DNA from: Catellatospora paridis
Lineage (GTDB): Bacteria; Actinomycetota; Actinomycetes; Mycobacteriales; Micromonosporaceae
Assembly (NCBI RefSeq): GCF_009720365.1
Contig: NZ_WBZD01000017.1
Span: 62,001 to 126,000 of the forward strand
Length of the DNA: 64,000 bases
Reading direction: 5' to 3'
The notes below the pieces were generated by a model, which was not told the origin of the DNA, searched no databases, and saw nothing but the letters and a program-made list of their open reading frames with translations. How positions within the stretch are numbered: the first letter of the stretch is position 1; every line of letters begins with the position of its first letter. Below, piece by piece: positions 1 to 59,176 of this stretch. Both the position numbers and the translations under genes were made by a program.

Positions 1-1044
1 GGGGCGCGCTCGCTGGCGCAGATCGGCGCGGAGTACGCGGCGGCCTTCGGCCGCAGGCTGGGCGACGGCCACTGGGAGCAGCTGCTGTGGCTGCTGCACG
101 GGCGGCAGCTGCTGGCCGGCGGCCCGGTGGCCGTGGCGGACCCGGAGCAGGTCGGCCGGATCCACCGGTTCCGCCTGGTCCGCGACGCCGCGGCGGTGGT
201 GGACCGGGTCCACGGGTGGGTGCGCCTCGCCATCCGCGGCCCGGTCGTGCTGGCCGTAGCGCTGGCCTGCGCGGCCATGCTGGCCGTGCTCGGCCTGCAC
301 GTGGGCGAGCTGGTCGACGGGTTCCTCGGCCTCGGCGGGCAGCCGGGGGCGATCGTCGCGGTGTTCGCGCTGGTCTGGGTGAGCGCTGCGCTGCACGAAC
401 TGGCGCACGGCGTGTCGGCGCGACACTTCGGCTGCACGGTCAGCGGTATCAGCATGCTGACGCTATCGTGCACTGTGGACAACCTCCTGTACCTCCAATC
501 ACGACGGAGGCAGGCCGCTATCGCGGCGTCGGGAGCCCTGGTCAACGCGGCCTACCTGCTGCCGTTCGCGGCGGCCTGGCTGCTGCTGCCGGAGCAGTCC
601 GCGGTGCGGGCGCCGTTGGCGGGCTTCCTGCTCGTCGGCGCGGTGCAGTCGCTGGTGAACCTGATCCCGCTCGCGCCGCTGGACGGCTACCGCATGCTCA
701 GCTACGCGCTGCGGGTGACGAACCTGTCCGGGGAGAGCCGCCGCTTCCTGCAGCTGTCGCTGTGGCGGCTGTTCGGGCGCGGACCGGGTGTCGCAGGCTA
801 CCCGTATCGTGCGAAGGTCACCTATGTCTCGTACGGGCTGTGGTCCGCCGCCGTCATCCTACTGGTCGGTACGGGATTGACGTTGATCTGCTACTCCCCG
901 TTGGCAGATCATTTCGGTACATCGGCCGCCGTCATCCCCGGACTGATCGTCGTACTGACGCTCGCCGGCTGGTTGGCGCGTCCATCACGCATCCAGGCTC
1001 CACAAGCGACCGCAAGTGTCAGAGGAGAGGCAAAGGACCGATGA
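1..1044 (+). CDS. M50 (site-2-protease-like) membrane metalloprotease, 5' end outside window
   Basis: The frame is open from base 1, so the gene starts to the left; 347 residues are visible. The zinc motif HELAHG lies at visible residues 132-137 inside a hydrophobic segment. The second S2P signature, LIPLAPLDG, follows after further membrane helices, supplying the third (Asp) metal ligand. These are the hallmarks of intramembrane M50 proteases. The stop overlaps the next ATG (ATGA), making it the first visible gene of an operon with an ABC exporter and a YcaO enzyme. In such RiPP clusters a protease of this kind plausibly removes the leader peptide or helps maturation at the membrane; that role is inferred. 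Family assignment is secure, substrate is not. Confidence 0.85.
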   Translation, partial: GARSLAQIGAEYAAAFGRRLGDGHWEQLLWLLHGRQLLAGGPVAVADPEQVGRIHRFRLVRDAAAVVDRVHGWVRLAIRGPVVLAVALACAAMLAVLGLHVGELVDGFLGLGGQPGAIVAVFALVWVSAALHELAHGVSARHFGCTVSGISMLTLSCTVDNLLYLQSRRRQAAIAASGALVNAAYLLPFAAAWLLLPEQSAVRAPLAGFLLVGAVQSLVNLIPLAPLDGYRMLSYALRVTNLSGESRRFLQLSLWRLFGRGPGVAGYPYRAKVTYVSYGLWSAAVILLVGTGLTLICYSPLADHFGTSAAVIPGLIVVLTLAGWLARPSRIQAPQATASVRGEAKDR

Positions 1045-1988
1045 GTGAGGTTGAGGAATTGAGCGTCGTAGACGCGGTCGACGCGGGCAGCACACCCGCG
1101 ATCGTGATTGACGGGGTGTCCAAGAGCTACGGCGACGTGCACGCGGTGCAGGGCGTGTCCCTGTCCATCGGGCAGGGCGAGTTCTTCGGCATCCTCGGCC
1201 CCAACGGCGCGGGCAAGACCACCCTGATCGAGATCGTGGAGGGTCTGCGCGATCCGGACGCCGGCCGTGTGTCGATCTTTGGGTTGTCGCCGCATCCGCG
1301 CAACCCGGCACTGCTGCCCCGGATGGGGGTGCAGACGCAGAAGTCGGCGTTCTTCACCCGGCTCACCGCGCGCGAGCACCTGGAGACGGTGGCCGCGCTG
1401 TACGGCAAGGACGCCGCGGCGGCGCAGCGCGCGCTGACCGTGGTCGGCCTGGACGGCTCGGCGAACGTACGCGTCACCGACGTGTCCGGCGGGCAGCGGC
1501 AGCGGCTGGCGATCGCCTCCGCGCTGGTGCACGACCCGGAGGTCATCTTCCTGGACGAGCCCACCGCGGCGCTCGACCCGCAGGCCCGTCGCGACCTGTG
1601 GAAGCTGCTGCGTGAGCTCAAGGCGGCCGGCAAGACCATCGTCTACACCACGCACCACCTGGACGAGGCCGAAGCCCTCTGCGACCGCGTCGCGATCGTG
1701 GTCGCCGGCAAGGTCGTCTCGCTGGGCAGCCCGCACCAGCTGGTGAACGCCGCCGGCCTGCCGACCCGCCTGCTGGTGGCGGTCGACCGGATCACCGTCG
1801 AGCAGGCCCGCGCCATCCACGGCGTGGACTCGGTCACCGTGGAGGGCGGCTCCGTCGTCATCTCCAGCCGCAACGCCGCCAAGGTGCTGGCGGCCGTCGC
1901 CGAGGTCGCCGGCCTCGACGGCGTGCAGACCCGCACCGCGACCCTGGAAGACGTCTACCTCGAACTGACCGGAACGGAGCAGCAGTGA
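1041..1988 (+). CDS. ABC transporter ATP-binding protein (RiPP export/immunity)
   Basis: A 315-residue ABC-2-type ATPase. Walker A GPNGAGKTT is near residue 54, the signature VSGGQRQR near 150, and Walker B VIFLDEPTAALD just after, followed by the H-loop region TTHHLDEAEAL. The C-terminal ~80 residues match the extension of DrrA/CcmA-like drug-export ATPases. The start is the ATG that overlaps the preceding stop (ATGA), with a GAGAGG-type site upstream; its own stop overlaps the permease start (GTGA). With the next gene it should form an exporter, most likely for the modified peptide product or for self-protection. Confidence 0.92.
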   Translation: MSEVEELSVVDAVDAGSTPAIVIDGVSKSYGDVHAVQGVSLSIGQGEFFGILGPNGAGKTTLIEIVEGLRDPDAGRVSIFGLSPHPRNPALLPRMGVQTQKSAFFTRLTAREHLETVAALYGKDAAAAQRALTVVGLDGSANVRVTDVSGGQRQRLAIASALVHDPEVIFLDEPTAALDPQARRDLWKLLRELKAAGKTIVYTTHHLDEAEALCDRVAIVVAGKVVSLGSPHQLVNAAGLPTRLLVAVDRITVEQARAIHGVDSVTVEGGSVVISSRNAAKVLAAVAEVAGLDGVQTRTATLEDVYLELTGTEQQ

Positions 1989-2740
1989 GCGCCTACGCAG
2001 CACTGACCAGGGCGAGCTTCAAGGCCTCGGTCCGAGACACCGCCACCGTCTTCTTCACCTTCGCCTTCCCGCTGCTGTTCCTGATCACCTTCGGCCTGAT
2101 CTTCCAGGGCCGCGAGGTGGACGACACCGGCTACCAGTACATCGACTACATCGCCCCCGGCGTGCTGTCCTGGGGCGTGGCCAACGCCGCGCTGTTCGGC
2201 GTCGCGTTCAGCCTGATGAGCTGGCGCAACGACGACCTGCTGCGGCTGATCCGGCTCACCCCGGCCAGCATCTGGTCGGTGCTCAACTCGCGCGCCGTCG
2301 TCTCACTGCTGGTGTCCGTGGTGCAGTCGGTGCTGTTCATCGGCGTCGCGCTGCTGCCGTTCTTCGGGCTGAAGCTGCACGCCAACTGGCTGCTGTCGCT
2401 GCCGGTGCTGGTGATGGCGGTGTCGGCGTTCCTCGCCCTCGGCGTCATCGTCGGCAACTTCTCCAACACGCCCGAGGCGGTCGCCGCCATCGCCAACTGC
2501 ATCATCGTGCCGATGGCCTTCATCTCCGGCTCGTTCTTCCCGCTCGACATGATGCCGGGCTGGATCGAGGCGGTGTCGCGGGCGCTGCCGCTGCGCTACG
2601 TCAACGACGGCATGTCCTTCGCCCTCAACGGGCGCGGCGACCTGACCGACTACCTGGTCGCGCTCGGCGCGCTCGGTGTGTACACGCTGGTCTTCGGTGC
2701 CATCGCGCTCCGGACGTTCCGCTGGAGCAACAAGTCATGA
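1985..2740 (+). CDS. ABC-2 type permease
   Basis: A 251-residue membrane protein with six predicted helices and the ABC-2 pattern: an N-terminal cytoplasmic start, a helix near 20-45, and a C-terminal part containing the typical PMAFISGSFFPLDMMP segment before an amphipathic region and the last helix. It starts at a GTG overlapping the ATPase stop by 4 nt and ends in ATGA overlap with the YcaO gene, so it is translated in the same operon. It is the membrane half of the exporter encoded with the upstream ATPase. The exported molecule is inferred to be the azole peptide. Confidence 0.9.
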   Translation: MSAYAALTRASFKASVRDTATVFFTFAFPLLFLITFGLIFQGREVDDTGYQYIDYIAPGVLSWGVANAALFGVAFSLMSWRNDDLLRLIRLTPASIWSVLNSRAVVSLLVSVVQSVLFIGVALLPFFGLKLHANWLLSLPVLVMAVSAFLALGVIVGNFSNTPEAVAAIANCIIVPMAFISGSFFPLDMMPGWIEAVSRALPLRYVNDGMSFALNGRGDLTDYLVALGALGVYTLVFGAIALRTFRWSNKS

Positions 2741-4734
2741 CCCCCGTGGCCCCCACGGGAGCCGGAGCGGCGGCGCGCGTCAGCGCGCCGCTCGCCCCGG
2801 CGGCGCTCGCCCTCCAGGCGGCGCTGACCGAACGCCATGACCGCGCCGGTTACCCGTGGGTGCCCGGCGCCGTGCCCCCGCGTGTGGTGGCACTGGGCGA
2901 CGCCGACGTGCTCGGCGCGCCCGACCCGCGGCGGGCCGCCGCGAACGTCACGCTGACCTCGGGCGCGGTGCTCGTCGGACCCTGGTCCGGCCCGGGCGCC
3001 GCGCCCGCGGTCCCCGCCTGCGGGCACTGCCTCGGCGTGCGCTGGCAGCGGCTGCGGTTTCGCACCGAGCGCGACGCGCTCGAGATCGGCACCGAGATGA
3101 CCCCCGCCGGCAGCTGGCCGCTGCTGTCGGCGTACGTGGTCGACGCGACCTGGAGCCTCTACGAGGCCACCGTGCTCGGCCGGGCGGAGACGCCGCTGAC
3201 CCTGGCGCACACCACCGGGGACGGCGACGCCGACGCGGCGCTGCCCCGGGTGTGCGCGCTCGACCTGCGCACGCTGCAGGTGCGCACGGTGCCGATCCTG
3301 GCCGACCCGCTCTGCCCCAGCTGCGCGGTGTCCGGGGCCGACAGCCCGGTCGACGGCCCGCTGGCGCTGACCCCGCACGGCAAGCGCACCCCCGACAGCT
3401 ACCGGCTGCGCTCGGCCGACAGCTACCCGTTGCCGGTGCAGGCACTGGCCAACCCCGTGTGCGGGGCGCTGGGGGCGGGCACCTTCATCAACGTCACGTC
3501 GCCGACCACCGCCCCGGTGACCGGCAGCGTGTTCATCCGCGGGTACGCCGGGCTGCTCGACGTGAGCTGGAGCGGGCAGGCCAACTCGTTCGCCACCAGC
3601 CGCAGCCTGGCCTTCCTGGAAGGGCTGGAACGGTACGCCGGCTCGCACCGCCGCCGGGCGGAGCGGCTCATCGTCGACTCCTACGCCAACGTCGCCGACC
3701 ATGCGCTGAACCCGGAGGACTGCGGGCTCTACGACCCGGACGTCTACCGGACCGACCCGCTGGCCGCGCCGTACTCACCCGACGCGGCTATCCCCTGGAT
3801 CTGGGGCTACTCGCTGCGCGACGAGCGGCCGATCCTGGTGCCGCGCCGGTTCTGCCACTTCAGCTCCGGGGCGCCCGGCGACAACTTCGTCTTCTCCTCC
3901 TCCAACGGCTCCGCGACCGGCAGCTGCCTGGAAGAGGCCGTGCTGTTCGGCCTGCTGGAACTCATCGAGCGCGACTCGTTCCTGCTCGGCTGGTACGGCA
4001 ACGCCGACCTGCCCCGCATCGACCTGGACTCGTGCGACAACGAGGTGGTCCGGGCCATGGTGGACCGGGCGGCGCTGCAGGGATACGACATCCTCGCCTT
4101 CGACAACCGCATCGACCTCGCGGTTCCCGTGGTCACCAGCCTCGCGGTGCGCCGCGACGGTGGTCCGGGCACGCTGTCCTTCGCCGCCGCGGCGGGCTTC
4201 GACCCGCAGGCGGCGCTGGAGGGCGCGCTGTCGGAGGCGCTGACCTACATCCCGCAACAGCCGCGCTCGGTGCGCCGACGCGAGCCCGAGCTGCGGGCGA
4301 TGATGCAGGACTTCCGGCTCGTCCGCCAGCTCACCGACCATGCCGGGCTGTTCGGCCTGCCGGAGATGCGCCACCACGCGGACTCCTACCTGCGGGTCAC
4401 CGAGCAGCGCCCCATGTCCGACCTGTACGCGGCCTGGAACGCCCGGCGCGGCGCGTCCCGGCACCTGCTCGACGACCTGCGGCTGTGCCAGCAGGAGCTG
4501 GTCGAGGCGGGCTCGGACGTGATCGTGGTCGACCAGACCACGCCGGAGCAGTCCCGGATGGGGCTGCGTTCGGTGTGCACCATCGTGCCGGAGCTGCTGC
4601 CGATCGACTTCGGCTGGGCCCGCCAGCGGGCCCTGCGGATGCCTCGGCTGCGCACCGCGTTCCGCCGGGCCGGCCTGCGCGACACCGACCTCACCGACGG
4701 GGAGCTTCGGGTGGTGCCGCATCCGTTCCCCTGA
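2737..4734 (+). CDS. YcaO-type azoline-forming cyclodehydratase with N-terminal zinc-tetracysteine (TOMM C-D fusion)
   Basis: A 665-residue protein. Residues ~45-200 resemble the E1/ocin-ThiF-like partner domain, with two Cys pairs CGHC (95-98) and CPSC (193-196) forming a probable structural zinc site. Residues ~235-665 are a YcaO domain: SRSLAFLEGLERY (288-300), the CLEEAVLFGLLELIERDSF region (397-415), and the C-terminal PHPFP. This PxPxP end is characteristic of azoline-forming YcaO enzymes, which use ATP to cyclise Cys/Ser/Thr side chains onto the preceding amide. The N-terminal part looks short for a full E1-like protein with its own leader-recognition domain, so a separate partner may lie left of the window. 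Its substrates are almost certainly the three precursor peptides at 4904-6037. Confidence 0.92.
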   Translation: MTPVAPTGAGAAARVSAPLAPAALALQAALTERHDRAGYPWVPGAVPPRVVALGDADVLGAPDPRRAAANVTLTSGAVLVGPWSGPGAAPAVPACGHCLGVRWQRLRFRTERDALEIGTEMTPAGSWPLLSAYVVDATWSLYEATVLGRAETPLTLAHTTGDGDADAALPRVCALDLRTLQVRTVPILADPLCPSCAVSGADSPVDGPLALTPHGKRTPDSYRLRSADSYPLPVQALANPVCGALGAGTFINVTSPTTAPVTGSVFIRGYAGLLDVSWSGQANSFATSRSLAFLEGLERYAGSHRRRAERLIVDSYANVADHALNPEDCGLYDPDVYRTDPLAAPYSPDAAIPWIWGYSLRDERPILVPRRFCHFSSGAPGDNFVFSSSNGSATGSCLEEAVLFGLLELIERDSFLLGWYGNADLPRIDLDSCDNEVVRAMVDRAALQGYDILAFDNRIDLAVPVVTSLAVRRDGGPGTLSFAAAAGFDPQAALEGALSEALTYIPQQPRSVRRREPELRAMMQDFRLVRQLTDHAGLFGLPEMRHHADSYLRVTEQRPMSDLYAAWNARRGASRHLLDDLRLCQQELVEAGSDVIVVDQTTPEQSRMGLRSVCTIVPELLPIDFGWARQRALRMPRLRTAFRRAGLRDTDLTDGELRVVPHPFP

Positions 4735-4903: not shown

Positions 4904-5080
4904 TCAGGCGCTGCAGCTCGTGGTGGAGGTGGTGGCACTCGTGGTCGACGTGGTGGACGAGCACGAGCACGAGGCGAGGATCGACTCGGCGGCGTCGGCG
5001 TAGTCCGAGATCGCGAACGTCTCGGTCTCCAGCGCCAGGATCTCGTCGGTCAGCTTCACCATCGTGGTGGTCTCCTGCAT
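4904..5080 (-). CDS. RiPP precursor peptide A1 (azole-type, Ser/Thr/Cys core)
   Basis: A 58-residue peptide. Residues 1-36 form an acidic leader containing ALETETFAISDYADAAE; the ETFAISDYADA part resembles thiopeptide leaders such as thiostrepton (DTLEISDYMDE). Residues 37-58 consist only of Ser, Cys, Thr and one internal plus one terminal Ala: SCSCSS, then Thr-Thr-Ser repeats, then SCSA. Every core residue except the two Ala can be cyclised or dehydrated. It carries three Cys (38, 40, 56). The ATG at 5080 is preceded by AAGGGGAG at good spacing, which favours it over the internal Met7. It faces the YcaO operon and has its own promoter module and terminator. Product structure is unknown. Confidence 0.88.
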   Translation of the reverse strand: MQETTTMVKLTDEILALETETFAISDYADAAESILASCSCSSTTSTTSATTSTTSCSA

Positions 5081-5101
5081 GACAACTCCCCTTGTCTCGG
5101 T

Positions 5102-5130
5102 GACCCCGGCCGGCCTGTCCGGCCCCGGTC
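5102..5130 (-). promoter_or_regulatory. 5' UTR hairpin of A1
   Basis: GGCCGG, 5-nt loop, CCGGCC, extended outward to GACC/GGTC across a 2x2 internal loop. It lies about 20 nt before the A1 start. The same GGCCGG-N5-CCGGCC core occurs at the same place before A2 and A3. Confidence 0.6.
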
Positions 5131-5160
5131 TCTGTTGCCTCTTCATTCCATCGGAGGCCG

Positions 5161-5211
5161 CTCACCGATCGACATGTCTGACCCTGTCAGGGCACTGTCC
5201 GCGGGTGACAG
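5161..5211 (-). promoter_or_regulatory. Conserved promoter/operator module of A1
   Basis: Read on the + strand: CTCACCGATCG, 12 nt, CTGTCA (5184-5189), 16 nt, TGACAG (5206-5211). The CTGTCA/TGACAG pair is an inverted repeat. On the - strand the proximal TGACAG could serve as a -35-like element toward A1. The same module with identical spacing precedes A2 and A3. Confidence 0.65.
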
Positions 5212-5318
5212 CGTTTTGACAGCACGAAGGGGCACCGTGCTCGCTCGACGGGGACGAGCGACGACGGCGCCGCAGACCGCCGCGCCGGCTGTCGTGCCGG
5301 CCTGGCGGGAGTCGGACC

Positions 5319-5356
5319 TGCGGCGGTCGCCCCGGGGGAGCGGGGCGACCGCCGCA
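5319..5356 (-). terminator. Terminator of precursor gene A2
   Basis: A perfect 16-bp stem (5319-5334 with 5341-5356) and a 6-nt loop, 33 nt downstream of the A2 stop on the - strand. The A3 terminator lies at the same distance from its gene. Confidence 0.72.
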
Positions 5357-5389
5357 CAGGTGGTGCAGGGCCCGTGCGGGCCGCGGGGA

Positions 5390-5566
5390 TCAGGCGCTGC
5401 AGCTCGTGGTGGAGGTGGTGCTGGAGGTGGTCGACGTGGTCGCGGACGACGAGCACGACGCGAGGATGGCCTCGGCGGCGTCGGCGTAGTCCGAGATCGC
5501 GAAGGTCTCCGACTCGAGCGCGAGGATCTCGTTGGCGAGGTTCGCGAGCTCGTTCTTGTTCTGCAT
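5390..5566 (-). CDS. RiPP precursor peptide A2
   Basis: A 58-residue paralogue of A1. The leader has NEILALESETFAISDYADA (residues 12-30); the core (37-58) starts SCSSS, continues with Ala-Thr-Thr-Ser and Thr-Thr-Ser repeats and ends SCSA, with two Cys (38 and 56). It differs from A3 only at residue 3 (Asn against His), so the two cores are identical and the copy is recent. The start is supported by AGGGAG upstream of the ATG at 5566. It has its own promoter module, UTR hairpin and terminator and so looks like an independent transcription unit read toward lower coordinates. Confidence 0.88.
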   Translation of the reverse strand: MQNKNELANLANEILALESETFAISDYADAAEAILASCSSSATTSTTSSTTSTTSCSA

Positions 5567-5587
5567 GATCTGCTCCCTGGTGTCCGC

Positions 5588-5610
5588 ACCGGCCGGCTTT
5601 TCCGGCCGGT
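5588..5610 (-). promoter_or_regulatory. 5' UTR hairpin of A2
   Basis: A perfect 9-bp stem (ACCGGCCGG with CCGGCCGGT) and 5-nt loop, just upstream of the Shine-Dalgarno of A2. It shares its GGCCGG/CCGGCC core with the A1 and A3 leaders. Confidence 0.6.
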
Positions 5611-5641
5611 CGCGCTTACAGATCTATTCAACAAGCCCTCT

Positions 5642-5692
5642 CTCACCGATCGACAGGCCTTTCGCTGTCACTGCGCTAACCGTTCGCGACAG
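5642..5692 (-). promoter_or_regulatory. Conserved promoter/operator module of A2
   Basis: CTCACCGATCG, 12 nt, CTGTCA (5665-5670), 16 nt, CGACAG (5687-5692) on the + strand. The spacing is the same as before A1 and A3, with one mismatch in the outer half-site. Confidence 0.65.
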
Positions 5693-5791
5693 CGCTCCGA
5701 TAGCGATCGGACATCCATTGGACAGGACGATCCGATAGTGGCCGGCGCGCCGACGAATGCGGCTTCGAATGACAGGCCCCGGAAACGGTTT

Positions 5792-5827
5792 GAGGCGGTC
5801 GCCCCCCGGGTGGGGGGCGACCGCCTC
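5792..5827 (-). terminator. Terminator of precursor gene A3
   Basis: A perfect 16-bp stem (5792-5807 with 5812-5827) and 4-nt loop, 33 nt downstream of the A3 stop. Confidence 0.72.
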
Positions 5828-5860
5828 ATGGGGTCGCCGTGCCGGCCGAAGCCGGGTTCG

Positions 5861-6037
5861 TCAGGCGCTGCAGCTCGTGGTGGAGGTGGTGCTGGAGGTG
5901 GTCGACGTGGTCGCGGACGACGAGCAGGAAGCCAGGATGGCCTCGGCGGCGTCGGCGTAGTCGGAGATCGCGAAGGTCTCCGACTCGAGCGCGAGGATCT
6001 CGTTGGCGAGGTTCGCGAGCTCGTTCTTGTGCTGCAT
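5861..6037 (-). CDS. RiPP precursor peptide A3
   Basis: 58 residues, identical to A2 except His3. Leader residues 1-36 include the thiopeptide-like ESETFAISDYADAAEA segment; core residues 37-58 are only Ser, Thr, Cys and Ala. The ATG at 6037 is preceded by AGGGAGCAGATC. It is the first of the three cassettes from the right and is divergent from the M20 amidohydrolase gene; the 149 bp between them carry the promoter module for A3 and probably also the promoter of that gene. Retention of an identical core in two tandem copies suggests dosage rather than product diversity, while A1 gives a second, more Cys-rich product. Confidence 0.88.
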   Translation of the reverse strand: MQHKNELANLANEILALESETFAISDYADAAEAILASCSSSATTSTTSSTTSTTSCSA

Positions 6038-6112: not shown

Positions 6113-6164
6113 CTCACCGATCGGCCGGTGTCCCGCTGTCACGTCGCTTTCGAGTGGTGACAGC
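6113..6164. promoter_or_regulatory. Conserved promoter/operator module between A3 and the M20 gene
   Basis: CTCACCGATCG at 6113-6123, 12 nt, CTGTCA (6136-6141), 16 nt, TGACAG (6158-6163). Here the dyad extends to GCTGTCAC and GTGACAGC. It ends only a few bases before the ribosome binding site of the M20 gene, so a regulator bound here could affect both directions. Confidence 0.65.
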
Positions 6165-6186: not shown

Positions 6187-7473
6187 ATGTCCGCTGAGGA
6201 AACGGTCCTGTCCGGAGTGGAGCAGGCGGCCGCGGCCGCCGGTGAGCTCTACCGGGACCTGCACGCCCATCCCGAGCTGTCGGGGGCCGAGCACCGCACC
6301 GCCGCCGTGCTGGCCGAGCGGCTGCGCGACGCCGGGTTCGCGGTGACCGAGGGGGTGGGCGGCACCGGGGTGGTCGGCGTGCTGTGCAACGGACCCGGGC
6401 CGACCGTGCTGCTGCGGGCCGAATTGGACGCGCTGCCGGTGGCCGAGCAGACCGGCCTGCCGTACGCGAGCCGGGCGGCTGCCGGCGACGGCACGCCCGT
6501 GATGCACGCCTGCGGGCACGACCTGCACGTGGCGGCGGTGGCCGGGGCGGCCGCGCTGCTCGGGTCAGGCCGGGCCCACTGGACGGGCACCGTGCTGGCC
6601 GTGGGGCAGCCCGCCGAGGAGACCCTCACCGGGGCCCGGGCCATGCTCGACGACGGGCTCTACGAGCGTTTCGGGCGGCCGGACGTCGTGCTGGCGCAGC
6701 ACGCGGCGCCGCTGCCGGCGGGCATGGTGGCGCACGGCGGCGGCCCGATGACCGCCGGCAGCGCCACCTTCGAGGTGGTGGTGCACGGGCGCGGCGGCCA
6801 TGCGGGCAGTCCGCACCGGGCCGTCGACCCGGTGGTGACCGCCGCGGCGATCGTGCTGCGGCTGCAGACGGTCGTGTCGCGGGAGGTCGGCCCGGCCGAG
6901 CAGGTCGTGCTGACGGTGGGCACGCTGCACGCGGGCACCCAGGCCAACGTGGTGCCGGACCGGGCGACGCTGGGCCTGACCGTGCGCTCGGTGTCGCCCG
7001 ACGCGCTGGCCCGGGTGAGCGAGGCGGTGCGCCGGGTGGTGACGGCCGAGTGCGCGGCGTCGGCCTGCCCGTCCGATCCGGAGATCACGCTGGTGTCGAG
7101 CTCGCCGGTGAACCTCAACGATCCGGCGGCGATGGCCCGCACCCGGGCCGCGCACGAGCAGTGCCTGGGCGGGCAGCGGGTGGCGTGGTTCCCGCCGTCG
7201 CTGGCGACCGAGGACTTCCCGCACTTCACCGAGTCCGGCGCGGCGGGCGTCTACTGGATGCTCGGCACGGTCGGACCCCGGCAGTGGGCGGCTGCCCCGG
7301 GCGCCACGGCGGCGGAGAAGCTGCAGTCGCTGCCCGCCAACCACTCGCCGCTGTACGCCCCCGATGTGGACCTGGCCCTGCCGACCGGGATCCGAGCCCT
7401 GGTCAGCGCGGCGCTGGCGCATCTGGACGGTGCCTCACCCGATGGTGAGAGATCTTCTTCCGTGGATGCTTGA
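6187..7473 (+). CDS. M20D-family amidohydrolase (hippurate hydrolase/N-acyl amino acid hydrolase type)
   Basis: A 428-residue dinuclear-metal hydrolase. Metal ligands and catalytic residues are recognisable: HACGHD (107-112), PAEET (Glu144/145), QHAAPLP (His172), and the C-terminal ATEDFPHF region. The M20D subfamily cleaves N-acyl amino acids, amino-acid conjugates and small peptides. GAAAGGAG upstream supports the ATG at 6187. It is divergent from precursor A3 and shares its promoter region, so it might trim a peptide or act in self-resistance; equally it may be an unrelated neighbour. Family assignment is secure, role is open. Confidence 0.88.
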   Translation: MSAEETVLSGVEQAAAAAGELYRDLHAHPELSGAEHRTAAVLAERLRDAGFAVTEGVGGTGVVGVLCNGPGPTVLLRAELDALPVAEQTGLPYASRAAAGDGTPVMHACGHDLHVAAVAGAAALLGSGRAHWTGTVLAVGQPAEETLTGARAMLDDGLYERFGRPDVVLAQHAAPLPAGMVAHGGGPMTAGSATFEVVVHGRGGHAGSPHRAVDPVVTAAAIVLRLQTVVSREVGPAEQVVLTVGTLHAGTQANVVPDRATLGLTVRSVSPDALARVSEAVRRVVTAECAASACPSDPEITLVSSSPVNLNDPAAMARTRAAHEQCLGGQRVAWFPPSLATEDFPHFTESGAAGVYWMLGTVGPRQWAAAPGATAAEKLQSLPANHSPLYAPDVDLALPTGIRALVSAALAHLDGASPDGERSSSVDA

Positions 7474-7483
7474 CACGACGACT

Positions 7484-7513
7484 TGCACCTGCCAACATCT
7501 ATTGGCATGTGCA
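7484..7513 (+). promoter_or_regulatory. Palindromic operator of the ArsR-type regulator
   Basis: TGCA, 2 nt, TGCCAA, 6 nt, TTGGCA, 2 nt, TGCA: a two-layer perfect dyad directly before the regulator start. A TTGACA (-35-like) hexamer lies just upstream at 7470-7475, so a bound repressor would cover the -10 region. Confidence 0.6.
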
Positions 7514-7523
7514 AGGGGCAAAC

Positions 7524-7841
7524 GTGAGATCCGCGGAACTGACGGGTGACGAGCTCGCCAGGCTGCTCGCCACCCTGGCGAGTCCGCACCGGTTGCGAGT
7601 GGTGGCCGCGCTGGCCGGCGGTCGCGACTACGTGAGCCGGCTGGCCCGGCAACTGGAGATCAGCCGCCCGCTGCTGCAGGTCCACCTGCAGAAGCTGGAG
7701 GCAGCCAGGCTCGTCCGCTCGGCGATCGAGGTGTCGGAGGACGGCAAGGCGATGAAGTTCTACGAACTTGAGGACTTCAGCGTGTTGCTGTCCCCCGAAA
7801 CGATCGCCGGCGCCGTCCGCACCCTCAGCCCGACCGACTGA
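7524..7841 (+). CDS. ArsR-family winged-helix transcriptional regulator
   Basis: A 105-residue protein made of one winged helix-turn-helix: ELARLLATLASPHRLRVVAAL, then the recognition region SRLARQLEISRPLLQVHLQK and a wing. No metal-binding Cys pair is visible, so it is probably a non-metal ArsR/HTH_20 type sensor. The GTG at 7524 is preferred because AAGGGG lies 5 nt upstream; a longer frame beginning at a TTG would overlap the operator. The palindrome at 7484-7513 points to autoregulation. A small membrane protein follows 50 nt downstream and is probably co-transcribed. Confidence 0.8.
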   Translation: MRSAELTGDELARLLATLASPHRLRVVAALAGGRDYVSRLARQLEISRPLLQVHLQKLEAARLVRSAIEVSEDGKAMKFYELEDFSVLLSPETIAGAVRTLSPTD

Positions 7842-8103: not shown

Positions 8104-8219
8104 GCCGGTGACGACACGTTGCGCTGCTCCCCAGCGGTGTCGTCACCGGGGGTGCCGGGCTCGCTGACCCGCTGCCGGTGACGACACGTTGCGCTGCTCC
8201 CCAGCGGTGTCGTCACCGG
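8104..8219. repeat. Two tandem copies of a 46-bp hairpin element
   Basis: Identical 46-bp units at 8104-8149 and 8174-8219. Each folds as a 13-bp outer stem (CCGGTGACGACAC with its complement) plus an inner CGCTG/CAGCG stem. They follow the ArsR/membrane-protein operon and are probably duplicated terminators. Confidence 0.75.
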
Positions 8220-47700: not shown

Positions 47701-49296
47701 TCAGCTGGCGTAGGTCTCGAACTCGGCGACCTTCGGCGCGGCGGTGGAGCTGGTGATCCGGAAGGTGACCTTGGTGGTCGAGGTGGCGGTGAAGGTGATG
47801 GTGCCCGCGCCGCTGCCCGACTTCAGCACGGCGCCGGTGGCACCGTTGAGGACCTGCCAGGACCCGATGGCCCCGGTGGAGCCGGACGCCTCGCGGATGA
47901 TGATCCGGGACACCGACTTGGCGGCACTCCACTTGACCGAGATGTCACCGGTCGCGCCGGAAGGCGACCAGAAGGTGCTCAGGTTGCCGTCCTTCACGTT
48001 GCCGTAGCTCGTGCCGCTGGCCTTGCTGGTGCCGTCGGCACCGGCGTCGGAGGCGAGGCTGAGGTTGGTGCCGCTGGGCGGCGGCGGGCTGCTGCTCGGC
48101 GAGGTCGACGGCTGCGGCGACGGGCCGGTGCTCGCCGACGCGGACGGGCGCGGCGAGGGGCTGCTGCTCGGGCCCGCGGACGGCGACACCGGCGTGCAGC
48201 TGCCGTTCGACACCTGCAGGCCCTTGTTCGCGCCCGCCGTCGCGGCGACGACGCTCGGCACGCAGCTCGCCGCGTCCAGCGTGTAGGAGTACGGGATGCT
48301 GACCGTGGTGTTGGACTGCACGTTCGGGCCGGCGGGGTTCGTGTCGGTGCCGGGGCTCGACCAGGTCACGTTGTCGAAGATGTTGCCGCTGACCTGCCAG
48401 TAGCCGGCCTCGCTGGTGTAGAACGTGCCGAGCACGTCCTTGGAGTTCTTGAAGTAGTTGTTGTCGACCTTGGCGCGCGCCCCGGCCCGGGAGTTGATGC
48501 CGGACTCGTGGAGGCTCACGTAGCTGTTGTTGTAGATGTGCGCGATGCCGCCGCGCAGCAGGGGCGTACGTGAGTCGATGTTCTCGTACAGGTTGTGGTG
48601 GAACGTGATGAAGCTGTTGCCGGTGTCGCTCTCGCTGGACCCGATGAGACCGCCGCGGCCCGAGTTGCGCAGGGTGCTGTAGGACAGCGTCACGTACTCG
48701 ACGTCGTTCTTCATGTCGAAGAGGCCGTCGAAGCCCTCCGCCTCGCCGCCCGAGGCCTCAAGGTTGACGTGGTCGACCCAGATGTTGCGGACGGTGCTCT
48801 CCATGCCGATGGCGTCGCCGCCGTTGGACAGGGGCGAGCCAGACTTCTTGACGTTCCGCACGGTCACGTTCTGGATGATGATGTTGCTGGAGTCCCGGAT
48901 GTGGATGCCCAGCTGGTCGAAGATCGCGCCGCCGCCGACCCCGATGATCGTGACGTTGCTGATCTCCTTGAGCTCGATCACATCAGCGGCGGTGTTGCAG
49001 CTCGAGCCCGACACCTTGGTGGTGTTGCCGTGGTTGATGGTCCCGGAGACCTGGATGATGATCGGGGTGCTGCTGCTGGCCCGGCTGCACAGAGCCGCGT
49101 GGATCGCGGTTCCCGTGGAGGCCTGCACCGTCGCACCGCCCGCGCCGCCGGTGGTCCCGCCGTTCTGGGTGGCGAAGCCGGTGACGCCGCCGGTTGCCGC
49201 GGACGCCTGGGGCGCCTGCAGCGCCACGCCGATCGCGGCCACCGCGGCCGTGGTGGCCGCCGCCGCCAGAAGTCGCCGTGTGACTGGTCGTTTCAT
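47701..49296 (-). CDS. Secreted pectate lyase (PL1) with C-terminal discoidin-like domain
   Basis: 531 residues. A Sec signal (to ~33) leads into a parallel beta-helix with the PL1 landmarks SNVTIIGVGGGAIFDQLGI, NIWVDHVNLEA, GLFDMKNDVEYVTLSYS and NSFITFHHNLYENIDSRTPLLRGG (catalytic Arg region). A Pro/Ser linker (~370-405) connects to an F5/8-type-C/CBM32-like domain (~405-531: LASDAGADGTSKASGTSYG, NLSTFWSPSGATGDISVKW). It should cleave de-esterified pectin outside the cell. The ATG at 49296 has only a weak ribosome site. Confidence 0.92.
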   Translation of the reverse strand: MKRPVTRRLLAAAATTAAVAAIGVALQAPQASAATGGVTGFATQNGGTTGGAGGATVQASTGTAIHAALCSRASSSTPIIIQVSGTINHGNTTKVSGSSCNTAADVIELKEISNVTIIGVGGGAIFDQLGIHIRDSSNIIIQNVTVRNVKKSGSPLSNGGDAIGMESTVRNIWVDHVNLEASGGEAEGFDGLFDMKNDVEYVTLSYSTLRNSGRGGLIGSSESDTGNSFITFHHNLYENIDSRTPLLRGGIAHIYNNSYVSLHESGINSRAGARAKVDNNYFKNSKDVLGTFYTSEAGYWQVSGNIFDNVTWSSPGTDTNPAGPNVQSNTTVSIPYSYTLDAASCVPSVVAATAGANKGLQVSNGSCTPVSPSAGPSSSPSPRPSASASTGPSPQPSTSPSSSPPPPSGTNLSLASDAGADGTSKASGTSYGNVKDGNLSTFWSPSGATGDISVKWSAAKSVSRIIIREASGSTGAIGSWQVLNGATGAVLKSGSGAGTITFTATSTTKVTFRITSSTAAPKVAEFETYAS

Positions 49297-49786: not shown

Positions 49787-50075
49787 GCGGCCGCGAGGCT
49801 GCCCGTCATCGGAGGGAGTCGCTGGCGCGGGTTGCCGGGTCCGGCAGCCGCGAACGCTGATCGACGACGACCGGGTGCCTTCGGTGCGGGCGGCGGTGCG
49901 CTACTACGAGCAGAACCTCGGCTGGACGCCGCTTGCCGGGGCGTTCGCGGGCGGCACCCTGGTGGCCGTCGGCGGCGACGCCGCGGCCGAGCCGGTGACC
50001 AGGTGCAACGCCTTCCGCCTGCCTGACTGCGTGTTCGAGCCGCCGTTCGAGGACTTCAAGCACTTCGGACAGTGA
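49755..50075 (+). pseudogene. Possible remnant gene behind the LacI-type promoter
   Basis: An open frame without a convincing start. GGAGGG at 49811 has no start codon in this frame nearby; GTG at 49875 is possible. The C-terminal part (VRAAVRYYEQNLGWTPLAGA, GTLVAVGGDAAAEPVTRC, then LPDCVFEPPFEDFKHFGQ) looks protein-like with two Cys. It may be the 3' end of a deleted secreted enzyme. I cannot name a family. Confidence 0.3.
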
Positions 50076-50091
50076 GGATGTGGCAGCGGGT

Positions 50092-51210
50092 CTACCAGCG
50101 CCGGTCGAGCCAGAGCGGCCCCCGGGGTCGCAGCGCGATCGCGGCGCTCGGGGTCGGGTCGCCCTCCACCTGGGCGAGTTTCGCCTCGCACCACGGCGTC
50201 AGGGCGGCGCGCAGCATGGCCCGGGCCAGGTGCGCGCCGAGGCAGGTGCGCCGCCCGCCGCTGAACGGCAGGAAGCCCCAGGCGGGCCGCCCGTCCTCGA
50301 AGCGCTCGGGCCGGAATGTGTCCGGTTCGGGCCACAGCCGCTCGTCGCGATGGGTGAGCAGCGGGGAGTACAGCACCAGCGTGCCCGCGGGCAGGTGGAC
50401 GCCGTTGATCGTGGCGTCGTGGGCGGTGATGCGGCTGCCCAGCCACCCGGCCGGGTAAAGGCGCAGGATTTCGTCGAGCACCTGCCCGAGCGTGTCGGCC
50501 TGCCGCCACTCGGGCGCGCCGGCCAGGTGCCACAGGGCCCAGGCCAGGGTGTGCGCGGTGGTGTCGTAGCCGGCGGCGAGCCCGACCCGGAGCTCCGCGA
50601 CCGCGTCGTCCATCCCGGACAGCGCCTCGGCGAGGCTGCCCGGCCGCGGGTCGGCGAGGATCGCGGCGATGGCCGCGTCGAGGCGGCGGAACAGCAGCGG
50701 CCGCGGGATCATCGGGCCGGGCGCGGGCCGCTGCAGCGGGTGCAGGAAGTCGGCCAGCAGCCGGTCGGGCATGGCGCCGGCGAAGAAGGCGGCGTTGAGC
50801 ATCCGGCGCACCACGTCGCTCGCCCAGCCCAGCGCCTCGAACCGGCCGGTGGGCAGATCCGCGCGCGCCACCAGGTCGAGGCGTTCGGGCAGGTGGTCCA
50901 GGGCGCGGGCGTGGAAGTGCGGGTTGAGTTCCCGGCGGCGCGGGTCGTGGGCGGGATTGTCCTGGTAGACCACCCCGGCGGACAGGTACGGCGTGAGCCC
51001 GCTGAGGCTGCCGACGCTGCGGAACGTGTCCAGGTCGCCGAGCACGGCGCGATTCCAGTCCGGGGTGTAGCCGACCACGGCGGTGCGCCACAGCCGCAGC
51101 CGGAACACGTCGCCGGTGCGGGCCCCGTCCTGCAGCAGCCGCACCGGGTCGGTGGTCCACCGCCACAGGTGGCCCAGCAGCGGCGTGCCCGCGGGCGCGG
51201 GGAGGTTCAC
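50092..51210 (-). CDS. Cytochrome P450 of the carotenoid operon
   Basis: 372 residues. [12 protein letters not shown] (I-helix), DEILRLYP (ExxR) and [18 protein letters not shown] (heme loop) are all present. Being the last gene of crtB-crtYc-crtYd-acyltransferase-glycosyltransferase-P450, with a GTGA overlap with the glycosyltransferase, it probably oxidises the carotenoid end group or chain, giving the hydroxyl to be glycosylated. Hydroxylation or ketolation is inferred from position only. The GTG at 51210 gives the usual N terminus [14 protein letters not shown]. Confidence 0.88.
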
Positions 51211-52277
51211 CGGTATTCCCGTCCCTTCCAGACCGCCGTGCGGCGCAGCGCGGTCAGGTAGACGGGCAGGGCGGCGGGCGCGGTGAACGGCACCAGCGCG
51301 GCTTCGGCGTACGCCCCGCGCCCGGTCTTGGCGTTGGACAGCACCCGCTCGGCGAGCCCGAGCACCGCCGCGGCCCGCCACCCCCCGCCGCGCCGCCACA
51401 GCAGCCACGGCACCGTGTACGCGGTCAGGTTCCAGGCGAAGCTCGCCGCCAGCAGCACGTCACTGCCGCCGTGCGCGGCCCGCATGCTCTTGCCGACGCC
51501 GCGTACGGCGCTGTGGTAGTCGTCGTACATGCGGGTGCTCACCAGGTCGCCGCCGAGCGCGAGCCCCAGCTTGAGGCCCTTGCGGCGGCTGAGCCGGGCC
51601 AGTGCCAGGTCTTCGACGATCTCGCCGGCCACCGCCGCGTGCCCGCCCACGTGCGCGTAGGCGGCGCGGCGGAAGGCCAGCAGCTGCCCGTTGGCGACCG
51701 CGGCGGCCGGGATCGGCAGGTCGAGCAGCTGGTGCGGCAGGAAGCCGAGCAGGTTCTCGTCGATCAGCGGCACCAGGAAGCGCTCGCCGAGGGTGCCCGT
51801 CTGCTGGCGCGGGAACACCGAGAACACGTCGGCGCGCTGGCGGCGCAGCTGCGCCCACACCGCGTCCAGCGCACCGGGTCGCAGGGTCACGTCCGCGTCC
51901 AGGAAGACCAGCAGGTCGCCGGTGGCGGCCAGGGCGAGCTGGTGGCAGGCCCAGTTCTTGCCGATCCAGCCGTCGGGGCGGGGCGCGCCGGTGATCAGCT
52001 TCAGGCGCGGGTCGGCGAAGCCCGCCACGACGTCGGCGGTGCCGTCGGTCGAGCCGTCGTCGAGGACCAGGATCTCCTCGGCGGGCTGGGCGAGCAGGCC
52101 GGGCAGGGTGTACGGGAGCCGGGCGGCCTCGTCGCGCGCGGGCACCAGCAGCGAGGTGCGCGGACGGCCCGGCGCCGAGCGCCCGCGGGCCAGCACCGGG
52201 AAGGAACGGGTGTTGCTCACCAGCCCGGCGGTCTTGACCAGGTGGAAGCCCAGCACGGCGGCGCTCAGGACGCCCAC
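51207..52277 (-). CDS. Family 2 glycosyltransferase (CrtQ/CruC-like)
   Basis: 356 residues. An N-terminal membrane helix precedes [58 protein letters not shown] (metal-binding DAD) and [12 protein letters not shown]. Two C-terminal hydrophobic segments follow. The WIGKNWAC word and layout match carotenoid glycosyltransferases of the diaponeurosporenoate type. It starts at GTG 13 nt before the end of the acyltransferase gene and overlaps the P450 gene by 4 nt. It likely transfers glucose to a hydroxylated or carboxylated carotenoid at the membrane. Confidence 0.87.
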
Positions 52278-52930
52278 GGCGCCGCTCCCTGCATGGCGTC
52301 GATGCGCTCGTCCACGCTGCGCCGCCCGGCGAGCACCCGGCGGAAGCTCGCCAACGGGCGGCGCGGATCCGCGACGGCGAGCTGGCTGTCCAGCGCGGAC
52401 AGATCGGCGGCGAGGGTTTCGGCCAGCCGCTCGGTGACCTGGTCGTCGCGGCCGCGGCGGGTCACCTCGGTGCAGGAGACGTACGCCTCGGGCTTGGTCT
52501 GGCCGCGCATGGCCACCCGGACCGCGACCGCGTACAGCGGCACCCGCGCCTGGCGGGCAAACCAGGCCGCGCCGGGGGACAGCGGGGCGGGCGGGCCGGC
52601 GGGGCGCAGCTCGCCCTCGGGGTAGATGACCAGGGTGCGCCCCTCGGCCAGGTGCCGCAGCCCGGTGCGAGGCTCGGCGGTGCCGAACACGCCCACTCGG
52701 CGCACGAACCGGTACCGGGCCAGGTTGTCCTGCGCCATGATCAGGCACGCGGGGTGCCGCGAGCGATCCAGCACGACGGACGCCACGAACGGGTCCCACC
52801 AGCTGTGATGGTTGGCGGCCCAGACGAACGGGCCGCGGGGCAGCCCGCCGCGCAGCCACACCCCGCGCAGGTCGCGTCGGACCAGGTAGGTGAAGCCGTG
52901 TCGCAGGAACGCCGCCACCGGGTCACCCAT
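52265..52930 (-). CDS. PlsC-type 1-acylglycerol-3-phosphate acyltransferase-like protein
   Basis: 221 residues. The acyltransferase motifs are NHHSWWDP (HxxxxD) and [10 protein letters not shown]. It overlaps crtYd by 8 nt and the glycosyltransferase gene by 13 nt. In staphyloxanthin-like and CruC/CruD-type pathways an acyltransferase esterifies the sugar of a carotenoid glycoside; the operon position supports that role here, but a phospholipid role cannot be excluded. Confidence 0.85.
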
Positions 52931-53309
52931 CGCGGCCCTCGCCGCCGTCGGCCGGGCGCAGCCGCTGCCACAGCAGCAGGGTCAGCGTGATCAGGGCGAG
53001 GCCGAACCCGTAGTCCTCGACGGGGATGTGCCACGGCACGCGAATCCCGCTGATCTGGTCCTCGGCGTAGTGCACCACGGTGGCGTCGGGCCGGGTGAGC
53101 CAGCCGTCGACGGGCACCATGAACGCCAGCGAGATCGCCACGGTGATCCAGTACCGGGCCGTCCGCAGCAGCCCGGTGCGCAGCACGACGAACTCCAAGG
53201 CCACCACCGCGACCGGGGCGGCGACGGCGGCGACCGTGTACTCAGCGGCCACGTCGGCCCCCGGCGGAGGCCCTGGCGCGCGGGGCGTCGGGTCCGGTGG
53301 CCGGATCAC
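52923..53309 (-). CDS. crtYd: Lycopene cyclase domain protein, second subunit
   Basis: 128 residues, three helices. The motif VPWHIPVEDYGFGLALITLTLLLW carries the PxE(E/D) box typical of the heterodimeric lycopene cyclases of actinobacteria. It starts at GTG 53309, inside the last 68 bp of crtYc, and is thus tightly coupled. The two subunits together close beta or epsilon rings on lycopene. Confidence 0.85.
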   Translation of the reverse strand: MIRPPDPTPRAPGPPPGADVAAEYTVAAVAAPVAVVALEFVVLRTGLLRTARYWITVAISLAFMVPVDGWLTRPDATVVHYAEDQISGIRVPWHIPVEDYGFGLALITLTLLLWQRLRPADGGEGRDG

Positions 53310-53685
53310 GCCGTGCGGGCTCTTCGGCGGGGACGCCGCGGGCTCGGCGCAGCATCCCGGCGCGCTCAGCGCGGCGCAGCAGTCGCGGGCCGCCGCCCAG
53401 CACCTCGAAGGTGAGCAGCGCGCACAGCGGCACGACCACGAAGAACAGCCACTCCTCCCACGGTAGGCCCGCGACGGTGACGCCGGTGGTGTACCGCGGC
53501 GAGAACCACCAGTGGCCGCGCGCGACGGCGATCAGGTCCCAGAGCACGAACACGGCCACCACCGGGACGAGCGTGGCCAACAGCCGCCGCGGCTGCCGGT
53601 AGACGCGCGCGCCGAGCACCGGCTCCAGCGGCAGCGTCACGGCGACGCAGGCAGCCAGGATCAGCAGGTAGCGCAGGGCGTCCAT
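53242..53685 (-). CDS. crtYc: Lycopene cyclase domain protein, first subunit
   Basis: 147 residues. Three hydrophobic segments with FVLWDLIAVARGHWWFSPRYTTGVTVAGLPWEEWLFFVVVPLC, containing the conserved PWEEWLFF box. An Arg-rich tail of ~40 residues follows, overlapping the crtYd start. The ATG shares one base with the crtB stop (TGATG). It pairs with the next gene as a heterodimeric cyclase. Confidence 0.87.
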   Translation of the reverse strand: MDALRYLLILAACVAVTLPLEPVLGARVYRQPRRLLATLVPVVAVFVLWDLIAVARGHWWFSPRYTTGVTVAGLPWEEWLFFVVVPLCALLTFEVLGGGPRLLRRAERAGMLRRARGVPAEEPARRDPATGPDAPRARASAGGRRGR

Positions 53686-54602
53686 CAGCTCGCCCGCTCC
53701 GGCGCGCGGGATGTCGCGATCGGGGTGCCGGCGGGGGTGAGCAGGCAGCGGGCGGCTACCTGCAACCGGCGGCGGGTGGGCACGGTCGCGCGGCGGGCGA
53801 AGACGTCGAGGTCGGCGCGTTCGATCTCGTCGAGGATGCCGCCGTAGAGGTGGAACGCGGTGCGGATGCAGGCCTGCGAGGTCGGCGCGAGCATGGTCAC
53901 GCCCGGAGCCGCCGCGGCGTAGTGCTCGCGGGCCCGGGTGATCTCGTAGCGGACCAGCTCCCGGATGGCCGTGGTGGCGGTGCCGCACGCCGCGGCCTGG
54001 TACAGCTCCGCCGGGCTCACGCCGAACGTGCGCAGGTCGCACTGGGGAAGGTAGATCCGTCCCCGCTGCAGGTCCTCGCCGACGTCGCGCAGGAAGTTGG
54101 TCAGCTGGAAGGCCAGCCCGAGCTGGCGGGCGGGTTCACGGGCCACGTCGGCGTCGGCCGGTTCCAGGATCGGCAGCATCATCGTGCCGATGACCGCTGC
54201 GCTGCCCTCCATGTAGCCGAGCAGGTCGCCGTAGTCGGCGTACTCGGTGACCTCGAGGTCCATGGCCATGCTGCGCAGGAACGACGCGAAGTCGGCGCGG
54301 TCCATGGCGAAGCGCTCGATGGTGTGCAGCACGGCGGGCAGCAGCGGATCGTCGACCCGGGCGCCGTGCAGGCCCGCCACGAAGCGGTCGGACCACTCGC
54401 GCAGCCGGGCGGCGCGCACGGCGGGCGGCAGGTCGTCGGTGCTGTCGACGATCTCGTCGGCGTAGCGGGTGAAGCCGTAGAGCGCGTGCACGTGCGGGCG
54501 CTTCCAGGCCGGGAGCAGGCGGGTGGCCAGGTAGTACGTGCGGCCGTGGCGGCGGTGCAGCTGCCGGCAGCGCTCGTACGCCGCGGCGAGTTCAGGCTCC
54601 AC
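53685..54602 (-). CDS. crtB: Phytoene synthase
   Basis: 305 residues from the GTG at 54602, which has CAGGAGAG upstream; a longer frame would start inside the crtE gene. The substrate-binding Asp motifs are YADEIVDSTDD (DExxD) and NFLRDVGEDLQRGRIYLP (DxxED). The enzyme condenses two geranylgeranyl diphosphates to phytoene. It is the first gene of the six-gene - strand operon, divergent from crtE. Confidence 0.92.
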   Translation of the reverse strand: MEPELAAAYERCRQLHRRHGRTYYLATRLLPAWKRPHVHALYGFTRYADEIVDSTDDLPPAVRAARLREWSDRFVAGLHGARVDDPLLPAVLHTIERFAMDRADFASFLRSMAMDLEVTEYADYGDLLGYMEGSAAVIGTMMLPILEPADADVAREPARQLGLAFQLTNFLRDVGEDLQRGRIYLPQCDLRTFGVSPAELYQAAACGTATTAIRELVRYEITRAREHYAAAAPGVTMLAPTSQACIRTAFHLYGGILDEIERADLDVFARRATVPTRRRLQVAARCLLTPAGTPIATSRAPERAS

Positions 54603-54670
54603 GGGGCTCTCCTGTCGGGAATATCGACTCAACAATCGACGCAACTTCGAGTCTACGTTAATCTGGGCCC
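54603..54670. promoter_or_regulatory. Divergent crtB/crtE promoter with direct repeats
   Basis: 68 bp with low GC for the region. It contains ATCGACTCAAC (54623) and ATCGACGCAAC (54635), an almost exact direct repeat with a 12-bp period, and a GACTC/GAGTC inverted pair. A TACGTT -10-like element ends 11 nt before the crtE GTG, which has no ribosome site and may be leaderless. The repeats are candidates for binding by the MerR-type regulator at 57386. Confidence 0.5.
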
Positions 54671-55801: not shown

Positions 55802-55818
55802 CCGGAAGGAGCGCACGC

Positions 55819-57291: not shown

Positions 57292-57293
57292 GC

Positions 57294-57389
57294 ATGTCCC
57301 ACGCCACGCCGGGTGCGCCGGGCATGAGCGGGCGAACCGGGACGACCGTGACTCATGCCGCAGCCGAGCGACGCGAGGTGAAGGCATGA
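57294..57389 (+). CDS. 31-residue linker micro-ORF between crtI and the MerR gene
   Basis: It starts 2 nt after the crtI stop and its TGA overlaps the next ATG (ATGA). The peptide contains TVTHAAAERREVKA. It fills the gap in the same way as the micro-ORFs at 11416 and 59111, though without their repeat sequence. It could simply couple translation. Confidence 0.35.
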   Translation: MSHATPGAPGMSGRTGTTVTHAAAERREVKA

Positions 57390-58258: not shown

Positions 58259-58277
58259 CCGCCCCGCCCCGCCCACC

Positions 58278-58369
58278 CGCAAGATCGCGACGATCTTGCG
58301 CGAACTGTTGGGATATGCCCGGAAAGGGTGTGTCATACCCCCAGTCCACGCAAGATCGTCGCGATCTTG
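58278..58369. repeat. Pair of CAAGATCG palindromes
   Basis: CGCAAGATCG-CGA-CGATCTTGCG at 58278-58300 and CAAGATCG-TCG-CGATCTTG at 58351-58369. Each is a palindrome and the second is the inverse of the first. They lie between the convergent MerR and maleate-isomerase-like genes and probably terminate both transcripts. Confidence 0.75.
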
Positions 58370-58370
58370 G

Positions 58371-59114: not shown

Positions 59115-59176
59115 GCCCGCTCCTCGCTTCGCTCGCCGCCGGCATGGACGCCGGTTGCCATGATTCGCTCGCTCAT
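59111..59176 (-). CDS. 21-residue linker micro-ORF
   Basis: Its ATG overlaps the stop of the membrane-protein gene and its TGA overlaps the start of the isomerase gene (ATGA on both sides). The peptide starts MSERIMATG and ends GGERSEERA, the same ending as the micro-ORF at 11416-11493. Confidence 0.45.
   Translation of the reverse strand: MSERIMATGVHAGGERSEERA

Follow-up and report, generated by a model that had tools for sequence, protein, structure and literature searches.

What is made from a peptide gene whose predicted core holds nothing but Ser, Thr, Cys and Ala? The question is raised by a 64,000-nucleotide stretch of the Catellatospora paridis genome (hereafter the window; positions 62001-126000 of contig NZ_WBZD01000017.1), in which three tandem precursor genes, A1 (4904..5080), A2 (5390..5566) and A3 (5861..6037), lie on the reverse strand and face a gene for a YcaO cyclodehydratase that ends in PHPFP. 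Our comparison of these genes with their relatives indicates that the locus is quite probably a cluster for ribosomally synthesized and post-translationally modified peptides (RiPPs), the products of which would be linear, carry azoles and dehydro amino acids, and be built by the logic of goadsporin biosynthesis from precursors with thiopeptide-type leaders.

Precursor peptides

The frames and translations bear out the arrangement that an earlier sequence-only reading had described, with three 58-codon genes (58 residues plus stop) facing the YcaO gene, a leader motif ETFAISDYADA common to A1, A2 and A3, and cores of 22 residues. In each core 20 of the 22 residues are Ser, Thr or Cys, and the only other residue is Ala. 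A2 and A3 share one core (SCSSSATTSTTSSTTSTTSCSA, two Cys), and the core of A1 is, as had been noted, richer in Cys (SCSCSSTTSTTSATTSTTSCSA, three Cys). A purine-rich, Shine-Dalgarno-like stretch was seen by eye ahead of the ATG of all three genes. The cores are beyond what chance would give, because open frames of at least 40 residues with the last 20 residues purely S/T/C/A number exactly three in the window (A1-A3) and zero in 60 dinucleotide shuffles of it.

Comparison of the precursors with thiopeptide family profiles, a check that the same reading had recommended, placed A2 and A3 in NCBIfam TIGR03892 ('thiazolylpeptide-type bacteriocin') at 29.7 bits each, above the cut-off of 25, with A1 below it at 19.7 bits. 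All three match NF033400 below its cut-off, and a Pfam-A scan of the three gave no match. The suggestion of an undescribed family calls for revision: A2 and A3 fall in a described family, and there are many such clusters in actinobacteria.

Biosynthetic enzymes

A lack of azole partner genes to the left of the window would, by the sequence-only reading's own criterion, have refuted it. That reading withstood the check, as an F protein, a second YcaO and a SagB dehydrogenase were found there, together with a split LanB dehydratase. In contig coordinates, and with start codons chosen among the possible starts, this part of the cluster comprises a regulator like AfsR and other Streptomyces antibiotic regulatory proteins (SARPs; 49912-52143), the F protein (52162-54396; matches to ocin-ThiF-like, TIGR03693 and TIGR03882), the YcaO D1 (54363-56312, also ending in PHPFP), SagB (56340-57944), LanB-N (Lant_dehydr_N; 57968-60781) and LanB-C (60778-61836). 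It continues on the forward strand of the window with an M50-type membrane metallopeptidase containing HExxH (1..1044, its start lying left of the window), the DrrA-like ATPase (1041..1988) and the ABC-2 type permease (1985..2740) of an ATP-binding cassette (ABC) exporter, the YcaO D2 (2737..4734) and, beyond the precursors, an M20 amidohydrolase/carboxypeptidase (6187..7473). D2 is a protein of 665 residues with a leader-binding N-terminal region and the PHPFP end mentioned above; it scores 330 bits on TIGR03604 and 82 bits on TIGR03882, and is 41% identical to D1.

Conservation was followed in 44 contexts from 43 genomes, of which 33 contexts have the two-YcaO form and 11 a one-YcaO form. 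LanB-N, LanB-C and SagB are present in 41 of the 44, and the F and M50 proteins in 40 each. Both D genes were found in 28 of the 33 two-YcaO contexts (the other five are cut by contig or fetch ends), and the M20 gene likewise in 28 of the 33. Within the first batch of contexts, HExxH is kept in 21/21 M50 orthologues and HACGHDxH in 19/19 M20 orthologues. The M50 protein is probably the leader peptidase, and maturation by an M50 enzyme is described for the epipeptide EpeX (PMC10885120); a trimming or self-protection step is possible for the M20 protein.

These protein families suggest a course of steps. The F protein would bind the leader, and D1 and D2, as non-redundant YcaOs, would convert selected Cys, Thr and Ser into azolines, with D2 perhaps retained for Ser/Thr and D1 for Cys. 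SagB would turn azolines into azoles, and the split LanB would convert Ser or Thr directly before an azole into dehydroalanine (Dha) or dehydrobutyrine (Dhb), the core probably being read in threes as Dha/Dhb, azole, unmodified residue. The M50 peptidase would then cleave the leader near Ala-Ser, the ABC pair would export the product, and the M20 hydrolase may trim one end.

The sequence-only reading had allowed for a linear azole or an azole/dehydro peptide. The azole enzymes are indeed present, and the azole/dehydro form is the better of the two options because a split LanB dehydratase accompanies the azole partners. A linear azole peptide without dehydration would need only YcaO and SagB, and we infer dehydration here from the genes; LanB would in that case be vestigial or act elsewhere. 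LanB-N and LanB-C nevertheless persist in all but three contexts, which are truncated, and across four bacterial families, with the residues of the elimination domain conserved, and we consider such a product improbable.

Elimination or pyridine formation

The set of F protein, YcaO, SagB and split LanB is also common to thiopeptides, in which two dehydroalanines are joined into a pyridine macrocycle by a [4+2] enzyme, here conceivably a bifunctional LanB-C or a protein coded elsewhere. The leaders and cores match thiopeptide precursor models, the cores start with Ser-Cys, and some thiopeptide clusters carry an additional cyclodehydratase as well (Cox et al., PMC4603692), so the possession of two is not unique. 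The predicted fold of LanB-C also speaks for a thiopeptide, being nearest to TbtD, with pyridine synthases heading the ranking and the elimination domains of full-length LanB following them; predicted fold alone, however, fails to separate the elimination type from the pyridine-synthase type.

Gene counts and motifs argue against a thiopeptide. A six-frame profile search found a single LanB-C in 41 of the 44 contexts, never two, and none in the three truncated ones. At control loci, by comparison, a His-type LanB-C stands beside a Tyr type in 8/8 cases. Of 36 genomes, 19 have a single PF14028 match genome-wide; the remaining 17 have more, but none closer than 29 kb to the match in the cluster. 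The elimination-type motif HMTNNR is present in 40 of the 41 LanB-C proteins and aligns with the elimination domain of NisB/MibB; in NisB, the substitutions R786A, R826A and H961A leave glutamylation without elimination (PMC4979651). Scored with NF045556, a pyridine synthase model with a cut-off of 325 bits, 5/5 control Tyr types pass at 389-470 bits and 5/5 control His types fail at 49-105 bits. The C. paridis LanB-C, the only PF14028 protein of its genome, fails at 79 bits, like the His types.

A linear product is the likelier one because no [4+2] pyridine synthase, a defining feature of thiopeptides, was found by these sequence comparisons, and we class the locus as a linear azole/dehydro RiPP cluster; a thiopeptide is unlikely. 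By sequence, the split LanB, whose C-terminal protein is of the elimination type, and the lack of a pyridine synthase place the cluster with goadsporin-like azole/dehydro systems.

A LanB-type dehydratase and a core with Cys besides Ser/Thr are also what a class I lanthipeptide would have, in which LanB-dehydrated Ser/Thr and Cys would form thioethers. This candidate was rejected as a LanC cyclase was not found in the cluster: the sole LanC-like match in the genome (E ≤ 0.01) is on contig C5, and the cluster is on C8. It would further leave two YcaOs and SagB unexplained, and the cores have few Cys (2-3), making it the least probable of the alternatives considered.

Core conservation and register

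Cores from Micromonosporaceae and from genus g70, which we infer to be probably Streptomyces, have in common a block of some 15 residues, STSTCSSTTSTTSCSA. The last 15 residues of 28 genes ending in TTSTTSC[ST]A comprise five amino-acid sequences encoded by 22 DNA sequences, and the four invariant Ser columns use both Ser codon families; the last nine residues are set by the search pattern, and Ser columns -14 and -11 are free of it. The pN/pS ratio (0.73 for the core, 0.89 for the leader) is by itself no sign of strong constraint. It was set aside as evidence on selection because AGY/TCN switches between Ser codons are scored as non-synonymous, and codon counts were taken in its place.

These data bear on whether the genes could be decayed or silent remnants from which nothing is produced. 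A core pN/pS that is not low would agree with decay, as would the state of A2 and A3, near-copies as from a recent duplication, and both points tell against a working cluster. On the other side, the enzyme frames translate without stops, Ser is kept at the four invariant columns despite the use of both codon families (with the stated limit on the last nine residues), and the block of about 15 residues recurs in two bacterial families. Remnants are therefore a very unlikely account of the locus.

Returning to a functional azole/dehydro cluster, the arrangement of residues in the cores suggests how sites may be chosen. Identity at lag 3 among the 31 two-YcaO cores is 0.474, against 0.305 after shuffling. 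In 16 of these (types I-III), with the register counted from the C-terminus and the last triplet excluded, 19 of 26 Cys fall at one register and 13 of 14 inert residues at another. The remaining 15 show a weak register or none (Cys 22/48; inert residues 3/7), and the pattern was spotted by looking, with its significance nominal. One-YcaO cores have a periodicity of 8 instead (identity 0.499 versus 0.348). The register suggests that the cores are built as triads of Dha/Dhb, azole and unmodified residue, which fits the triads of nostatin and spongiicolazolicin and the finding on Dha and the following azole in goadsporin, where Dha at S4 and S14 could depend on the azole that follows each of them (PMC5303826).

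Read in triads, the A2/A3 core is predicted to carry about seven azoles and seven dehydro residues with a monoisotopic mass of 1778.55 Da (2044.81 Da unmodified), and the A1 core seven azoles and five dehydro residues with a mass of 1830.55 Da. Chemically, 20 of the 22 positions can indeed be modified, as the sequence-only reading had it, yet the register points to only some 12-14 that really are. More tentatively, a nearly all-modifiable core might be read in a fixed register of three by two specialised YcaOs to give regular linear dehydro-azole triads, nearly unchanged across actinobacterial families; as practically the whole core is modifiable, site choice would then follow register, not residue type.

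Two cluster architectures

A precursor profile run over the contexts gave 93 matches at E ≤ 1, and 91 of these passed a filter by which at least 10 of the 14 C-terminal residues had to be S/T/C/A/G; the two lost are a chance match and a match in genome G388 with other residues in its tail. Two of the 91 were further left out for lack of a 12-residue core, one at E 0.97 and one, probably real, in G083 that ends in Lys. After trimming of leading A/G/N/Q/F, 33 contexts of the two-YcaO form yield 52 precursor genes and 31 distinct cores, and 10 contexts of the one-YcaO form yield 37 genes and 23 distinct cores. Mean core content is 16% Cys and 30% Thr in the former, versus 24% Cys and 16% Thr in the latter. 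Because related cores are non-independent, this contrast can hint at an action of D2 on Thr/Ser but does not test it.

In the YcaO tree, D1 (29 rows; support 99/94) and D2 (31 rows; support 98/96) each form one clade, and the 11 single YcaOs do not group as one. The two proteins are by this tree ancient paralogues, and their separation into clades implies that the split predates their spread among the bacterial families covered here. Both YcaOs of G452 (family f22; L154-L155) are placed inside Micromonosporaceae rows, which suggests that the cluster passed as a whole from one family to another.

Among one-YcaO genomes, G127, G116, G293, G297, G400, G462, G490 and G497 have three precursors together (four in G490), with distinct S/T/C(/G/A) cores. 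The sets are kept as sets across two bacterial families and are possibly a multi-peptide system. G388 (L169-L170) has a divergent one-YcaO cluster, with a precursor match ending in SCTTTGSHCHDTIL and a LanB-C without HMTNNR, and is perhaps a bridge to another family.

Distribution

A search of 300 family genomes with A2 as query gave matches in 32, from 12 of 44 genera (E ≤ 0.01; the weak matches G016 and G132 included), and contexts were taken for 26 of the 32. G194, G200, G252 and G287, outside the fetched contexts, have precursors and a LanB-C. Among 394 genomes of the class, the precursor profile found at least 20, from 6 of 138 genera, a lower bound because at most 16 candidates were scored per genome; contexts were taken for 17 genomes besides C. 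paridis, leaving out G356 and G629. A LanB-C profile (E ≤ 1e-30; five candidates scored per genome) matched 24 of the 394 class genomes. Five of these matches are weak; those inspected, all of the five but G627, are loci with two LanB-C. A contig scan of named relatives gave one locus, in Micromonospora matsumotoense.

A one-YcaO form of the cluster is carried by plasmid NZ_CP108024.1 of Streptomyces sp. NBC_00316. Its likely precursor (L186:14427-14600, forward strand; 57 residues ending in SSSSCSCSSCCSCSTSSCCSCSSSTS) has no annotated gene on its strand among the genes listed, and is overlain antisense by a 'hypothetical protein', WP_328891754.1 (L186:14408-14659). Genes of 58 codons, held by the sequence-only reading to be too short for gene callers, are not in themselves out of reach for such programs, but the plasmid illustrates that they can be missed.

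Precursors with S/T/C/A cores thus appear, from these searches, to be a widespread and apparently uncharacterised actinobacterial family. Six core and leader strings were sought in the literature and none was found, subscription papers being outside the scope of the search. An antiSMASH survey of marine Micromonosporaceae reported 37 linear azol(in)e-containing peptide (LAP) and 36 thiopeptide clusters (PMC10868606), part of which may belong to the family.

Likely control elements around the precursors

The window has three copies of the 11-mer CGATCGGTGAG, on the reverse strand at 5161..5171, 5642..5652 and 6113..6123, 75-80 bases ahead of the starts of A1, A2 and A3, respectively. Elsewhere a form of it lies ahead of precursors only in the near relative G129; in 10 other contexts it is found away from them. 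It is likely a shared control element of this lineage. SARP-type 11-bp direct repeats are not claimed because a perfect 7-mer pair precedes A1 only, and A2 and A3 have just 6-of-7 pairs in other places. A sigma-70-like promoter search found none, and a terminator search was not above chance.

Upstream of the SARP gene (contig 48094-49179) is a regulator-like protein of 361 residues with homologues in 12 two-YcaO contexts, C. paridis included, and in one one-YcaO context. An ArsR-like regulator (window 7494-7841) adjoins the cluster and, among the first 22 contexts, is present only in C. paridis and G129. Two identical 41-base copies with inverted ends (window 8107-8147 and 8177-8217) directly follow a small open reading frame; shuffles expect 0.

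Relation to known systems

The closest enzymology is that of goadsporin from Streptomyces sp. TP-A0584, a linear peptide with azoles and Dha made by a YcaO, a dehydrogenase and a split LanB (GodF/GodG), with no [4+2] enzyme (PMC4603692, PMC5303826). The thiopeptide-type leader, F protein, two YcaOs, M50 peptidase and S/T/C/A-only cores set the present cluster apart from goadsporin, and an acetyltransferase, a feature of goadsporin, was not detected above a curated cut-off among 16 cluster-region proteins scanned. The goadsporin core holds several other residues besides Ser, Thr, Cys and Ala. Thiopeptides of the thiostrepton, thiocillin and thiomuracin type share the F protein, YcaO, SagB, split LanB and precursor model TIGR03892, and the thiostrepton leader is of the ISDYxD type, as in A1-A3; here, unlike in thiopeptides, no second, Tyr-type LanB-C was found and the core is free of other residues.

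Coryneazolisins (Cox et al. 2015), apparently uncharacterised too, resemble the cluster in that a Cys/Ser/Thr core is accompanied by LanB-like dehydratases and two D proteins, with no [4+2] enzyme among them (PMC4603692). Compared by description, they differ in that their core has Ile, one D protein is discrete and one fused, and the host is Corynebacterium; Ile is present in 0 of 54 distinct cores here, though the core-cutting pattern stops at Ile. Dehydrazoles (carnazolamide) also combine many azoles with dehydro residues, and Ser before an azole is dehydrated, but their dehydratase is of the LanM type (DUF4135) and their leader long and nitrile hydratase-like (PMC10676384). Here the dehydratase is by family a tRNA-type split LanB (PF04738/PF14028), and DUF4135 had no match among the proteins scanned. 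Spongiicolazolicins A and B, nostatin A and phazolicin are likewise built of Dha/Dhb, heterocycle and unmodified residue (PMC11583998). A spongiicolazolicin is disfavoured as the product: compared by description, its length of 29 (A) or 28 (B) residues (PMC8838263) and the unmodified residues in its triads argue against the two being the same. The cluster seems to be of mixed make-up, combining goadsporin-type enzymes with a leader and F protein like those of thiopeptides and with the coryneazolisin layout of two YcaOs and no [4+2] enzyme.

If this reading is true, the clusters would represent a class of hypermodified peptides that is common and long conserved among antibiotic-producing actinobacteria but has apparently escaped study. 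They would also make an open question in RiPP biosynthesis testable, namely how YcaO and LanB, which both act on Ser/Thr, share out a nearly fully modifiable core. Cores rich in Thr go with the two ancient YcaO paralogues and cores rich in Cys with a single YcaO, which would offer a natural contrast for the study of residue selectivity.
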